Shown one piece after another: positions 35,096 to 64,000 of a stretch of 64,000 bases of DNA. Made by a program: the position numbers and the translations under genes. This DNA comes from Salipiger mangrovisoli (GTDB lineage: Bacteria > Pseudomonadota > Alphaproteobacteria > Rhodobacterales > Rhodobacteraceae), in contig NZ_JADFFK010000001.1 of NCBI RefSeq assembly GCF_015223355.1, positions 186,001 through 250,000 of the forward strand, given 5' to 3'. A model generated the notes under the pieces. It ran no database searches, was not told where the DNA came from, and saw only the letters and a list, made by a program, of their open reading frames with translations. How positions within the stretch are numbered: the first letter of the stretch is position 1; each line of letters begins with the position of its first letter.

Positions 35096-35172
35096 GCGGT
35101 TGTAGCTCAGTTGGTTAGAGTACCGGCCTGTCACGCCGGGGGTCGCGGGTTCGAGCCCCGTCAACCGCGCCA
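35096..35172 (+). tRNA. tRNA-Asp (GTC), copy 1
   Basis: A 77-base cloverleaf with a seven-pair acceptor (GCGGTTG/CAACCGC), D arm, and anticodon stem CCGGC/GCCGG enclosing CTGTCAC with anticodon GTC. The T arm has GTTCGAG, and the CCA end is encoded. Confidence 0.97.
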
Positions 35173-35206
35173 CCGCTACCTTGGATTGATGACCGGCAGA
35201 AAAAGC

Positions 35207-35283
35207 GCGGTTGTAGCTCAGTTGGTTAGAGTACCGGCCTGTCACGCCGGGGGTCGCGGGTTCGAGCCCCGTCAACCGCGCCA
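35207..35283 (+). tRNA. tRNA-Asp (GTC), copy 2
   Basis: An identical copy of the tRNA at 35096, including the encoded CCA, 34 bases downstream. It is probably co-transcribed with copy 1. Confidence 0.97.
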
Positions 35284-60520: not shown

Positions 60521-61330
60521 TCAGAGCGCCAGCTCGACCCAGACCGGCACGTGGTCCGACGGCTTGTCGCGGCCGCGGATGTCGCGGTCGATGCCGCAAT
60601 CCACCATCAGGTCGGCGCAGGACGGCGTCATCAGCACGTGGTCGATGCGGATGCCGTTGTTCCGCTGCCACGCCCCGGCCTGGTAATCCCAGAAGGAATA
60701 GTGCCCCGGTCCCTGCACGCGGGCCCGGAACGCCTCGGTGAAGCCGAGGTTGAGAATGCGGCGGAAGGCGTCGCGGCTCTGCTGCAGATAGAGCGCGTCT
60801 TTCTCCCAGGCCTGCGGCTTGGCGGCGTCCTCGGCCTGCGGGATGATGTTGTAGTCGCCCGCCATCAGGGCAGGGGTCTCGTCGGCCAGAAGCTGCTGCG
60901 CGCGGGCATGCAGCCGGTCCATCCAATCCAGCTTGTAGCCGTATTTGCCATCGCGGATCGGCTGACCCTCGGCGTCGAACTCCACCGGGTTGCCGTTCGG
61001 CAGGTAGAGCCCGCAGAGGCGCACCGCCGCCGTCTCGCCCACGACCGTCGCCTCGATCCAGCGCGCCTGCTCGTCGCTGTCGTCGCCGGGCAGGCCGCGG
61101 CTGACGTCCTCGAGCGGGTGCTTGGAGAGGATCGCCACGCCATTGAAGCTCTTCATGCCGTGGGTTTCGACGTTGTAGCCGCGCTCCTCGAAAAGCTCGC
61201 GGGGGAAGGCCTCGTCGACCGACTTGATCTCCTGCAGCAGCGCGACATCCGGCTGCGCCTCGTCGAGCCAGTCCGCCAGCGCGCCGACGCGCGCCTTGAT
61301 GCCGTTGATGTTGAAGGTGGCGATCTTCAT
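60521..61330 (-). CDS. xthA: exodeoxyribonuclease III
   Basis: XthA is the main AP endonuclease/3' exonuclease of base-excision repair. The 269-residue product begins KIATFNINGIKARV and carries the metal-site LLQEIKS, the LCGLYLPNGNPV loop, AGDYNIIP and the C-terminal RIDHVLMTP and SDHVPVWVEL. The start at 61330 follows GGAGGG on the minus strand. It diverges from the repeat-peptide cassette across a 328-base AT-rich gap. Confidence 0.94.
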   Translation of the reverse strand: MKIATFNINGIKARVGALADWLDEAQPDVALLQEIKSVDEAFPRELFEERGYNVETHGMKSFNGVAILSKHPLEDVSRGLPGDDSDEQARWIEATVVGETAAVRLCGLYLPNGNPVEFDAEGQPIRDGKYGYKLDWMDRLHARAQQLLADETPALMAGDYNIIPQAEDAAKPQAWEKDALYLQQSRDAFRRILNLGFTEAFRARVQGPGHYSFWDYQAGAWQRNNGIRIDHVLMTPSCADLMVDCGIDRDIRGRDKPSDHVPVWVELAL

Positions 61331-61658
61331 CTGGTGCCCTCCGGAAGTTGCGCCAGCTATCGCGCAAAGCCGGCGGGGGGACAAGGCCGGCTGTTCCGAT
61401 TCGCCGGCGATTCGGCCAGATCGCGGTGCGATTCGAGGTCAATTTCCGAATTTTGGTGACGCTAGGGAAACTATCCCCAGAAAATTATTTTCTGTGGGGA
61501 AGCGTGATTGTCGCGAATTGCGACCATATTGTAACTCATTGTTTCTGTGAAGAACTCCGGTATTAATCTACCTTAACAAGAAACCATATTGCCTGAAGCA
61601 ATCATCGCAAGAAACCCTGAAGCACGTTTCCAGTGCCAATCCAACCAGGAGGTCTTCC
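61331..61658. other. AT-rich 328-base control region upstream of the repeat-peptide cassette
   Basis: No gene is supported here. The stretch 61440-61620 is strikingly AT-rich for this genome. It contains a hairpin at 61475-61499 (CCCCAGAAAAT with ATTTTCTGTGGGG, one bulge), a GTCGC-GAATT-GCGAC dyad at 61510-61524, and a possible -35/-10 pair (TTGTCG near 61508, TGTAAC near 61530). A strong AGGAGG at 61647-61652 serves the next gene. The base composition and dyads suggest a regulated promoter rather than a constitutive one. Confidence 0.45.
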
Positions 61659-62006
61659 ATGACTGCTCAACTCAAGCACACCGTGACCGAGGAAGCTCAA
61701 GCCGCGACCGATTGCGATCTCTTCGGCGGCGAGGGCTGCGCGATGTTCACCTCGGGGGCCGCGCCGGCCGGGGCGCAGGCGCTGCTCGGCGAGGCTGTCG
61801 AGATGTTCACCTCCGGGGCTGCCCCGGCGGGCACCGCGATCGCCTCGGGCGAGGGCGCCGCGCTGTTCACTTCGGGGGCAGGCCCGGTGAGCGCGTCGCG
61901 GATCACCTCGGGCGAGGCGGTCGGGCTTTTCACCTCCGGGGCCGGGCCGCTGCGCTCGGAACTCGCCGCGGGGGAAGCCACCGCGCTCTTCACCTCGGGG
62001 GCCTGA
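61659..62006 (+). CDS. tandem-repeat short protein with five FTSGA units (possible peptide precursor)
   Basis: The 115-residue product has a 24-residue leader (with Cys19) followed by five repeats of about 20 residues. Each contains GE(G/A)xx(M/L)FTSGA. The FTSGA cores start at residues 30, 50, 70, 91 and 111, and the protein ends exactly at the last one. Between cores the linkers are small and neutral (APAGAQALL, GPVSASRITS). Only two cysteines occur (19 and 27), both before the first core. Expression signals are strong: AGGAGG five bases before the ATG, then a hairpin after the stop. I do not recognise a named family with certainty. A multi-core secreted or modified peptide is an inference. 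Confidence 0.8.
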   Translation: MTAQLKHTVTEEAQAATDCDLFGGEGCAMFTSGAAPAGAQALLGEAVEMFTSGAAPAGTAIASGEGAALFTSGAGPVSASRITSGEAVGLFTSGAGPLRSELAAGEATALFTSGA

Positions 62007-62018
62007 CGCCGCCTCGGG

Positions 62019-62041
62019 GCGGGTACCGACAGGGTGCCCGC
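62019..62041 (+). other. strong hairpin between repeat peptide and its neighbour gene
   Basis: GCGGGTACC-GACAG-GGTGCCCGC: a nine-pair stem with one wobble, 13 bases after the peptide stop. It would protect the upstream mRNA and reduce read-through, giving an excess of the peptide over the next protein. Confidence 0.6.
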
Positions 62042-62095
62042 CTGCCGGCTTTACCCTTCGCCCATCCGGGCCCCGCGCAGGAAAGGTCCGTCCGC

Positions 62096-63169
62096 ATGTC
62101 CACTGTCGTCGCTCTCCGTCCGATGCCGCGGCTCGCCGCGCCCGACGTGCGCATCGCCGCGCTGGTTACCTGTTTCGCACGCCACCGCCGCAGCGAGGAG
62201 GACGTGTTCTGGCTGAAGGAGAATGCCGAGCTCCTGAACATCCTCGAATGCACCCGTGCGTCGGGCGGGGGCGGGATCGGTACGCAGGCGCTGCAGCCGC
62301 ATGCGGGGTTCTACGCCACGGCCGAGGCACGGCTGGGCTTCTTTCCGCAGTATTACCGCTTCTTGCTGTCAATGGTGCTCGACCTCGAGGACCTCGGGAT
62401 GGCCGGCGACACCGGGCTGCGCATGGCGCAGAGCATCCGCGACGCGGATCTGCCTGCGGCCGAGCTTTCGGATCTGCAACGCATGGAGGCGCGGCGGCTG
62501 CTGGCGCGGCGCGGCCTTGCCGGCCGCAAGGATACCGGCCTTGAGGACCGGCTGCGTGCCTTCTGCGCCCGCCCCGGCACCTTCGCGCTGCCGAACAAGA
62601 AAGCGGCCTATGAGCTCAGCCATATCGTCTTCTACCTCAGTGAATACGGGCGGCGCGATCCGCAGCTCGACGAGGCGGCGCGGACCAGCCTGCATTTCGC
62701 GGGAAATCTTGCCTATCTTGAACAGAATTCCGACCTGCTGGCTGAAGTCTGCATCGCGCTACGCTACGCGGGGGAGGTCCCGCCCGTGCTCTGGACCGGC
62801 TGGCTGAGCCGCGAGACGCATCTGTTCCGCGTCGCGTCGGGTCCGGATGGCCCGGTGCAGGACGGCTACCACGACTTTCTGGTCTGCAACTGGCAGCGCG
62901 CGGTGGCGGGGGAAGACCCTTTCCGCAAGCCGCTCGAAGCCGGGCACATGCGGTTCGACCGCGCCGCGAGCGAGGCTGCGCCGCTGCGCGAGCTGTCGCG
63001 GGCGCTCTATGCCATGCAGGGCGGTCGCTGCGCCGACTGGGGTGTGATGCGCCGCCGCATGGGCGCGGCGCTGTCGCCGATGGTGCGCGGCCTGCTGGAC
63101 GAAATGGCGCTGGGCTCTGCGCATTTCGACGCCTTCTTCGAGGGCTTCGTCCGGGCCCGGCAGTCATGA
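62096..63169 (+). CDS. uncharacterised helical protein of the repeat-peptide cassette
   Basis: The 357-residue product starts at 62096 (GGAAAGG upstream) and is predicted mostly alpha-helical. Conserved-looking segments include HRRSEEDVFWLKENAELLNI, GFFPQYYRFLLSMVLDLEDL and AYELSHIVFYLSEYGRRDP. Near the C-terminus there is a CADWGVMRRRMG stretch. I see no signal peptide, no transmembrane helix, no radical-SAM CxxxCxxC, no YcaO, lanthionine-synthetase or kinase motif, and no helix-turn-helix. It is coupled to the transporter by an ATGA overlap. It could belong to an existing Rhodobacterales DUF that I cannot name reliably. A partner or modification role for the repeat peptide is a guess from context. 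Confidence 0.7.
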   Translation: MSTVVALRPMPRLAAPDVRIAALVTCFARHRRSEEDVFWLKENAELLNILECTRASGGGGIGTQALQPHAGFYATAEARLGFFPQYYRFLLSMVLDLEDLGMAGDTGLRMAQSIRDADLPAAELSDLQRMEARRLLARRGLAGRKDTGLEDRLRAFCARPGTFALPNKKAAYELSHIVFYLSEYGRRDPQLDEAARTSLHFAGNLAYLEQNSDLLAEVCIALRYAGEVPPVLWTGWLSRETHLFRVASGPDGPVQDGYHDFLVCNWQRAVAGEDPFRKPLEAGHMRFDRAASEAAPLRELSRALYAMQGGRCADWGVMRRRMGAALSPMVRGLLDEMALGSAHFDAFFEGFVRARQS

Positions 63170-64000
63170 GGACGTCGGGCGCGGCGCTGACCGGCGCGGG
63201 GCTCGTCGCGCTCTACACCGCGCTGATCGCCGCGGCGGACGGGATCACCAAGCTGATGTCGGGCGGCTATGCGGCCCCGCAGTTCTTTGCGCTGTCCTCG
63301 GCGCTGGTGCTTTGCCTTTCGGCCTGCGCCGCGGCCGGACAGGGCTCGGTGCGCGAGGGACTGAGCCTGCAAAGCCGGGGCACGATGGTGCTGCGCGCGC
63401 TGCTGACGGTGGTGGCGGCAATCGCCTTCTACATGGCATTCCGGCATCTGCCCTTTGCCGATGTGTTTGTCTTCATCGGGCTCATGCCGATCATCGCCGC
63501 CGCGCTTTCCGGTCCGGTGCTGGGAGAGCCGCTGCGCCCGGCGGCCTGGCTCGCGGTGGCGGCGGGGGCCTGCGGCCTGCTCTTCCTTGTGCCCGAGGGG
63601 CGCGCCGGGCTGGATGCCGGGCATCTCTGGGCGCTGCTCGCGGCGTTCGCCGGGACCGGCGCGATGGTCGCGGCCCGTGCCATCGCGCGGCGCGAGCGCA
63701 AGCCGCTGGCGCAGGTCTTCTGGCCCAATCTCGCGCTGGCGCTGGTCATGGGCGCGGCGCTGCCCTTCGTCTGGCAGCCGATGCCGCCCTCGGACTGGCT
63801 CTGGGTCGCGGGCTACGCGCTTTTGCTTTTCGGCGCGCGGCTCGTCTCGGTCGAGGCGCTGCGGCTGCTTCCGGCCTATGTGGCGACACCGCTGATGAAC
63901 CTGCAATTCGTCTGGATGGTGGGGATCGGCGCGTTCGGCTTCGGCGAGCTGCCAAGCCTCGGCAGCATGCTGGGGGCGGCGCTGGTCATCGGCTCGGGCC
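63166..64000 (+). CDS. EamA/DMT-family transporter (3' truncated by window end)
   Basis: The visible 278 residues start at the ATG in 63166, which overlaps the preceding stop. They contain about nine hydrophobic helices of the ten-helix drug/metabolite transporter superfamily. There are two EamA halves (ALIAADGITKL- and LWALLAAFAGTGAMVAAR- type starts) and the GEPL kink (PVLGEPLRPAAWLAVAAGAC). The C-terminus lies outside. DMT proteins usually export or import small metabolites; its coupling to the repeat-peptide operon suggests it may export a cassette product. Confidence 0.85.
   Translation, partial: MRTSGAALTGAGLVALYTALIAAADGITKLMSGGYAAPQFFALSSALVLCLSACAAAGQGSVREGLSLQSRGTMVLRALLTVVAAIAFYMAFRHLPFADVFVFIGLMPIIAAALSGPVLGEPLRPAAWLAVAAGACGLLFLVPEGRAGLDAGHLWALLAAFAGTGAMVAARAIARRERKPLAQVFWPNLALALVMGAALPFVWQPMPPSDWLWVAGYALLLFGARLVSVEALRLLPAYVATPLMNLQFVWMVGIGAFGFGELPSLGSMLGAALVIGSG

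Follow-up and report, generated by a model that had tools for sequence, protein, structure and literature searches.

We analyzed a 64,000-nucleotide stretch of the Salipiger mangrovisoli genome (contig NZ_JADFFK010000001.1, positions 186,001 to 250,000; hereafter the window), at the end of which three genes form a cassette encoding a 115-residue repeat protein, a DUF6902 protein (DUF, domain of unknown function), and an EamA transporter of the drug/metabolite transporter (DMT) type. With somewhat better than even confidence, we read the repeat protein as a multi-core precursor resembling those of ribosomally synthesized and post-translationally modified peptides (RiPPs), each unit of which the DUF6902 protein would modify as an epimerase of the DUF6895 type, with EamA as the exporter. 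The cassette is RiPP-like in kind; its surprising part is a tetrapeptide core which is uniform within precursors and yet changes fast. Genes of this type are carried by numerous marine members of the family, as a rule next to the DUF6902 gene. The tetrapeptide varies by species yet agrees across almost every copy, which points to a family of small peptides not yet described, possibly signals. The parts of the cassette are listed below.

61659..62006, plus strand: precursor gene, 115 residues, a leader and five units ending in F-TSGA (list of open reading frames, ORFs; homologues)
61659..61727, plus strand: leader, residues ~1–23, with a conserved M-x-A-x-x-K start (comparison of 24 precursors)
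61749..61760, plus strand: core 1, TSGA (unit scan)
61809..61820, plus strand: core 2, TSGA (unit scan)
61869..61880, plus strand: core 3, TSGA (unit scan)
61932..61943, plus strand: core 4, TSGA (unit scan)
61992..62003, plus strand: core 5, TSGA, with the stop codon directly after it (unit scan)
62096..63169, plus strand: DUF6902 protein, 357 residues, putative peptide epimerase (Pfam, profile alignment, structural model)
63166..64000, plus strand: EamA/DMT transporter, running 53 bases beyond the end of the window (Pfam, genome contig)

An earlier sequence-only reading of the window had described a 115-residue protein with five regular FTSGA units, and the ORF confirmed it: FTSGA stands at residues 30, 50, 70, 91, and 111 (spacing 20, 20, 21, and 20). 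An AGGAGG ribosome site lies ahead of the ORF, and the last TSGA core is the exact C-terminus of the protein. The third ORF had been taken for a transporter overlapping the second gene, and this also held: it was assigned to EamA by Pfam, its start overlaps the DUF6902 stop codon (ATGA) at 63166, and it is complete in the genome beyond the window, with 295 residues (L003:2167-3054). Chance was ruled out as the source of the repeats, both by 20,000 shuffles of the 115-residue protein, in which no 5-mer occurred five times (the maximum was four, in 4 shuffles), and by 125 distinct homologous precursors. A second copy in the genome was considered for contig C66, but the match there spans 33 bp within a long frame read as polyol-dehydrogenase-like and was taken as chance. 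The window precursor and four others had no match above any cut-off in Pfam or NCBIfam; the match of the precursor to the RiPP FlmA (14.1 bits, cut-off 30) was too weak to be taken as kinship. No signal peptide was seen in the precursor by eye.

The family was assembled from 155 DUF6902 loci comprising the window, named loci for the top 80 of 337 matches, and the rest from further genomes, with some species represented twice. A scan detected a tandem-repeat ORF directly upstream of DUF6902 in 147 of the 155 loci (125 distinct proteins), and five loci missed by the scan (L015, L036, L050, L056, and L155) carry repeats visible by eye. Of the 153 assessable loci, 152 therefore have a repeat protein ahead of the DUF6902 gene. 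Two loci were not assessable, L028 (masked upstream) and L128 (starting at a contig edge), and L127 is the sole assessable one without an upstream repeat ORF. The 125 precursors contain 957 units, from 2 to 20 per precursor with a median of 8. The unit layout is G-[DE]-x-[VT]-x-[MLA]-F, then the four-residue core, [AG]-P, and a loose linker, mostly 20–21 residues altogether. In correction of the earlier reading, the core is the tetrapeptide following F rather than the whole FTSGA. The last core forms the exact C-terminus in 92 of the 125 precursors, while 22 others end five residues later. At the leader start, compared in 24 precursors, M1 is invariant and A3 and K6 are conserved in at least 90%. 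A short gene-encoded precursor with a leader and a core is here linked to a candidate modifying-enzyme gene, as is required of a RiPP system. Compact units of 8 or 13 residues without the usual linker, in which the core plus a short preceding part is repeated, were observed in L073, L080, L081, L131, L132, L136, L146 (Shimia and relatives), L072, and L013. A typical Rhodobacterales cassette was also found in L077, a record titled Enemella evansiae TN21-6; the name is an actinobacterial one, and the record is probably misnamed or contaminated.

Uniformity of the cores was evaluated with a main unit set, in which units were chosen by G at −6 and F/Y at 1 only and the core was ignored (120 precursors with at least three units). 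Pairs of units within a precursor agreed at core residues 2–5 in 98, 97, 95, and 96% of cases, vs. 44, 76, 44, and 43% between precursors. Outside the core, agreement within precursors was 46–64% at positions −5 to −1, 65% at residue 6, 85% at P7, and 30–40% at linker positions 8–12. A first unit set, which favors uniform cores since its units matched the modal pentamer at three or more of five places, gave 98.1–99.5% agreement within precursors for the core; F at position 1 varied within precursors (90% agreement), being replaced by Y, V, M, L, or C. All units shared a single tetrapeptide in 103 of 120 precursors of the main set (at most 2 in 200 permutations) and in 113 of 125 with core-based counting (at most 3 in 200 permutations); part of the difference is due to leaders or spacers in which G-x5-F/Y occurs by chance. 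Core uniformity holds under the core-blind choice of units. From 34 (main set) to 39 (core-based count) modal tetrapeptides were distinguished, among them TSGA, TSGS, TSWS, SSGS, TSGL, TSCA, TTSM, ITSC, TNWC, and MCCS; Ser, Thr, and Cys are abundant in many of the cores.

Same-core unit pairs of the main set differed in DNA in 2767 of 3179 cases. The ratio of nonsynonymous to synonymous differences per site (pN/pS) was 0.14 for the core, 0.47 for the part before the core, and 0.81 for the linker; the first unit set gave 0.11 for the core and 0.82 for the spacer, and the cores of the window had a pS of 0.43 and a pN of 0. Since the copies differ at synonymous sites, selection and not recent duplication keeps them alike. 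On the enzyme tree, built from 114 DUF6902 proteins (a quick tree with many weak branches), at least 54 changes of the core type were nevertheless counted. L058 and L060 share 85% identity outside the cores, and each of their six aligned units has Thr in one and Ser in the other, Thr being encoded by ACG or ACT and Ser by TCC, TCG, TCT, or TCA; therefore, the copies changed singly or via very short conversion tracts. Matching yet changing copies are the pattern expected if the copies must fit one recognizer. Free loss of repeats among close relatives had earlier been named as an argument against a co-evolved system, and here the outcome is mixed; the copy number does vary widely (2–20), yet the copies stay alike in their tetrapeptide. 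Taken from sequence comparison, these data support the interpretation of the first gene as a putative multi-core precursor.

The steps between units (n = 832) were 20 (461), 21 (295), 8 (39), 19 (14), 13 (9), 17 (5), and other numbers of residues. A structural repeat protein with one FTSGA strand per coil (a beta-solenoid, an adhesin, or an ice-binding protein) might be proposed from the 756 steps of 20–21 residues and from the AlphaFold2 model of the precursor, which placed a short strand on each FTSGA, although the mean predicted local distance difference test (pLDDT) score of this model was only 58.7. Steps of 8 (39/832) or 13 (9/832) residues are incompatible with a fixed coil length, and steps of 17 and 19 also occur in some relatives; because 8- and 13-residue steps occur and the model is poor, a beta-solenoid is unlikely. 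Moreover, the core residues of close relatives differ jointly across aligned copies, and packing needs no such thing. Overall, we find a structural repeat protein very improbable.

Among 149 genomes of the window's family, DUF6902 was present in 45, and the precursor profile matched 42 of these 45 vs. none of the 104 genomes without DUF6902. The three genomes with DUF6902 and without a profile match were G099, in which two MMCCS units are seen at locus L121, G139 (contig edge), and G039, which carries L127. Repeat proteins occurring mostly without the second gene had been put forward as evidence against a linked system; no genome of this kind was found among the 149, and 42 have both genes. 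EamA was represented by a close homologue (E up to 1e-40), adjacent by coordinates, in 35 of the 45 DUF6902 genomes and in none of the 104 others; up to 16 candidates were scored in each genome. At the level of loci, EamA is adjacent in 113 of the 152 with room for it (105, plus 8 with an open frame beginning inside DUF6902). The transporter had been regarded as dedicated to the system, which agrees with the close homologue being found only with the precursor–DUF6902 pair but not with the 39 of 152 loci that have no EamA. Among 240 genomes of the class, DUF6902 exceeded the cut-off in three, all belonging to the window's family. A plasmid-borne element was rejected, as tblastn of DUF6902 against 72,556 plasmid records gave no match at E up to 1e-5.

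The 357-residue protein was considered unrecognized in the sequence-only reading, which also saw no known tailoring-enzyme motif in the cassette. Both statements were overturned: the protein matches Pfam DUF6902 with 508 bits, is also homologous by sequence to PF21836 (DUF6895; 75 bits vs. a cut-off of 23.8), and hence falls into a group with a reported tailoring enzyme, DUF6895 being a lasso-peptide epimerase according to the title of Shi et al. (ACS Catal. 2026) as cited in PMC13352647. Comparison of DUF6902 with DUF6895 by hhalign yielded a probability of 95 and an E of 2.9e-8, with 16% identity over 179 aligned columns. In an alignment of 121 DUF6902 proteins with four DUF6895 proteins from other Proteobacteria, both families have the motifs Y172-x3-H176...G185, D213-x3-E217, and Y258-H259 (window numbering) in common. 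The polar motifs are invariant in the four DUF6895 proteins and conserved in at least 119 of 121 DUF6902 rows: H176, D213, E217, and H259 occur in the 120 rows other than L127, and Y172 and Y258 in 119 of 121.

The AlphaFold2 model of DUF6902 (pLDDT 94.5) was mostly helical. A Foldseek search of this model against the PDB gave no match with E below 0.001, and the DUF6902 sequence had no matches to solved structures up to E 1. When VIA-align was applied to the Foldseek candidates, many of the top rows were toroid proteins (Z ~9.6–12, root mean square deviation ~4, ~230 residues aligned), with matches spanning DUF6902 residues ~13–276. The top ones were RabGGTase beta (Z 12.0), class II terpene cyclases, and complement C3/C4 fragments; the lanthipeptide synthetase CuvL (Z 10.2) and cellobiose 2-epimerase (Z 9.6) were also present. 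We take all of these to be alpha/alpha toroids. The comparison is supportive, not proof, of a toroid-like, all-helical fold predicted for DUF6902. Since the toroid matches include prenyltransferases, class II terpene cyclases, a lanthipeptide synthetase, and sugar epimerases, they are also consistent with the same multi-core precursor being served by another chemistry, in which DUF6902 would carry out dehydration, cyclization, isomerization, or leader-guided processing and the link to DUF6895 would reflect fold and substrate type only. We regard another chemistry as possible, though on balance unlikely: the cores rich in Ser, Thr, and Cys would fit several side-chain modifications and DUF6902 and DUF6895 are distant, whereas three polar motifs are common with DUF6895, of which one member is an epimerase by title.

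L127 occupies the same chromosomal address, at the junction with xthA, and its genome (G039) lacks a precursor profile match. At the motif sites, L127 has V172, Q176, L213, R217, L258, and T259. Loss of the precursor and loss of the polar residues coincide in this locus, which argues that these residues serve work on the precursor. L127 is a probable pseudoenzyme.

Outside the window's family, DUF6895 exceeded the cut-off in three genomes, and a fourth protein (G780) also passes it. A small ORF was seen by eye just upstream in all four fetched loci: L175 (8006-8203, 65 residues), L176 (9437-9868, 143 residues), L177 (7769-8185, 138 residues), and L178 (7962-8198, 78 residues). Two of the four have a doubled aromatic motif; the motifs read in these small ORFs are GPWFVL, GPWYIY, DWTFVSPNYVYKG, and AWAFIVKGKFVFK. 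Possibly, they form another precursor family, and DUF6895-type enzymes beside small peptides may constitute a wider class.

The strongest structural rival, which we consider quite improbable, is an unprocessed disordered cytoplasmic scaffold, whose identical motifs would bind DUF6902 many times and would be kept identical by co-evolution with one pocket. The uniform motif combined with weakly constrained spacers (pN/pS 0.81), the lack of a signal peptide by eye, and the low-confidence precursor model all fit a scaffold, as do the dispensable EamA and the fixed chromosomal address. On the other hand, the homology to a family with a RiPP enzyme reported by title, the precursor-like ORFs beside other DUF6895 proteins, and a close EamA homologue found only with the precursor–DUF6902 pair speak against a scaffold; near invariance of four residues over up to 20 copies also appears to go beyond usual docking motifs.

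In the favored reading of a precursor modified by an epimerase, each unit would provide its own recognition sequence plus a four-residue core (here TSGA). We infer that DUF6902 acts on the core of each unit, most likely as an epimerase that uses its conserved His, Asp, and Glu residues to turn one core residue into the D form. A host protease would then free the peptides, with the last core residue as their C-terminus, and EamA, where present, would export them; recognition of the product would require matching copies.

Several observations weigh against this reading. The link of DUF6895 with epimerase activity comes from one title, and the equivalence of active sites is putative. The best Foldseek E was 0.07, so that the fold match is possibly just a common arrangement, and a Z of 12 is within the range reached by chance for helical models. 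The motif loss of L127 stands for one event, and this row is the most distant of the alignment (27% identity). Pfam recognized no lasso gene and no dedicated leader peptidase among ten neighbor proteins, drawn from the window and from the DNA following it; a gene for an M24 (methionine-aminopeptidase-type) peptidase about 2.5 kb upstream of the cassette is probably a housekeeping one. EamA is absent from the above-mentioned 39 of 152 loci with room, including all 13 loci titled Marivita. The regular steps of 20–21 residues (756/832) also fit a structural role. Finally, 17 of 120 precursors were not fully uniform: by reading, 11 have a true second form, mostly two core types (e.g., TSGS and TTSC in L139), and 6 have only an off-register match (e.g., L052, L085, and L152).

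The chromosomal address of the cassette is constant. xthA is located divergently upstream in all 67 fully covered named loci (60521–61324 in the window), and erpA-like and dgt-like genes are nearby in 54 of the 67 each (names from reading; the family of xthA was checked by Pfam). Of 20 genomes lacking DUF6902, 18 yielded xthA, and 10 had a readable junction. An erpA-like frame lies at most 1.2 kb from xthA in 8 of these 10 junctions; none of the 10 had a frame with more than one core-like match or, in the readable 700 bp, an exact DnaA-like box. Two tandem tRNA-Asp(gtc) genes were observed elsewhere in the window, at 35096-35283. Two further features of the window adjoin the precursor gene.

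61471..61554, no strand assigned: three degenerate DnaA-box-like 9-mers before the precursor gene (motif scan)
62017..62043, plus strand: intercistronic hairpin with an 11-bp stem, not a conserved feature (folding vs. shuffles)

The DnaA-box-like 9-mers are CTATCCCCA (61471-61479), TGTGGGGAA (61493-61501), and TGTGAAGAA (61546-61554); each has two mismatches to TTATCCACA/TGTGGATAA, and the first two are an inverted pair. Boxes with 0–1 mismatch to TTATCCACA occurred in 91 of 120 upstream regions vs. 1.1% of 543 random slices from the same loci, with a mean of 1.76 boxes per upstream region vs. 0.05 in shuffles. Their positions are mostly ~−200 to −160 and −120, and the three degenerate ones of the window are at like places. 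That DnaA, or another protein with similar specificity, regulates the cassette is a guess. The boxes had raised the idea of a replication origin (oriC) at the locus. This was rejected, as GC skew sampled in two chromosomes places the cassette within the minus half and not at the minus-to-plus change; the plus-to-minus change is beside it in G055 and 0.3–0.5 Mb away in G141. A broader and more tentative idea, which we think unlikely, is a widespread roseobacter-type peptide-signal ("pherotype") system, with tens of species-specific tetrapeptides in many identical copies per polyprotein, a D residue introduced by DUF6902, DMT export, and expression tied to DnaA or replication via the conserved DnaA-like boxes.

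The hairpin between the first two genes had been noted in the sequence-only reading. It does exist at ~62017-62043; its stability, however, is close to that of dinucleotide shuffles (z −0.8 for the intergenic stretch of the window, which is not clearly more stable). Across 122 intergenic regions including that of the window, the mean z was −0.6, with 25% below −1.5 and 9% below −2.5. With stability this weak and patchy, a role of the hairpin as a conserved signal is unsupported.

A literature search, with most subscription journals and all bioRxiv preprints outside its scope, returned no description of DUF6902 or of the repeat family and no mention of DUF6902, PF21843, or PF21836, whereas DUF6895 was named in one paper; on the topics of roseobacter RiPPs and repeat precursors it found nothing on the cassette in titles or the beginnings of abstracts. 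The excerpt of PMC11278168 deals with other RiPP enzymes. For DUF6902, so far without an assigned function, the present analysis proposes a candidate chemistry and a likely substrate. Cores alike within a species and fast-changing between species are the pattern expected of a recognized signal or ligand. Many of the carriers are named strains, which makes the prediction directly testable.

The closest known system is that of the DUF6895 lasso-peptide epimerase, as known from its title: the family is related, the motifs Y-x3-H, D-x3-E, and YH are common to both, and a small-peptide gene lies beside the enzyme in four DUF6895 loci. MslH is a further lasso-peptide epimerase, reported to act on the C-terminal Trp of a ribosomal precursor and metal-dependent by title (PMC10406935); epimerization of one residue of a ribosomal precursor would be common to MslH and, putatively, the cassette. 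In contrast to lasso systems, no lasso cyclase or leader peptidase was recognized among the ten neighbors of the window cassette, nor any transglutaminase-like B or asparagine-synthetase-like C protein, and the precursor is a repeat polyprotein and not a single-core lasso precursor. Unlike DUF6895, DUF6902 is a Pfam family of its own, above the cut-off in only one bacterial family here.

Cyanobactins and plesiocin-type graspetides resemble the cassette in having repeated cores with their own recognition sequences, a leader, and an adjoining modifying enzyme. They differ from it in that the cores described here are apparently four residues long, alike within a precursor, and species-specific, and in that the three-gene cassette has no ATP-grasp, YcaO, or protease gene. 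The precursors of yeast alpha-factor and of molluscan achatin and FMRFamide belong to eukaryotes and depend on other enzymes, whereas our precursor is bacterial, shows no secretory signal peptide by eye, and has a putative signaling role. Both kinds of precursor, however, hold many identical, very short peptides which differ between species, and achatin carries a D residue.

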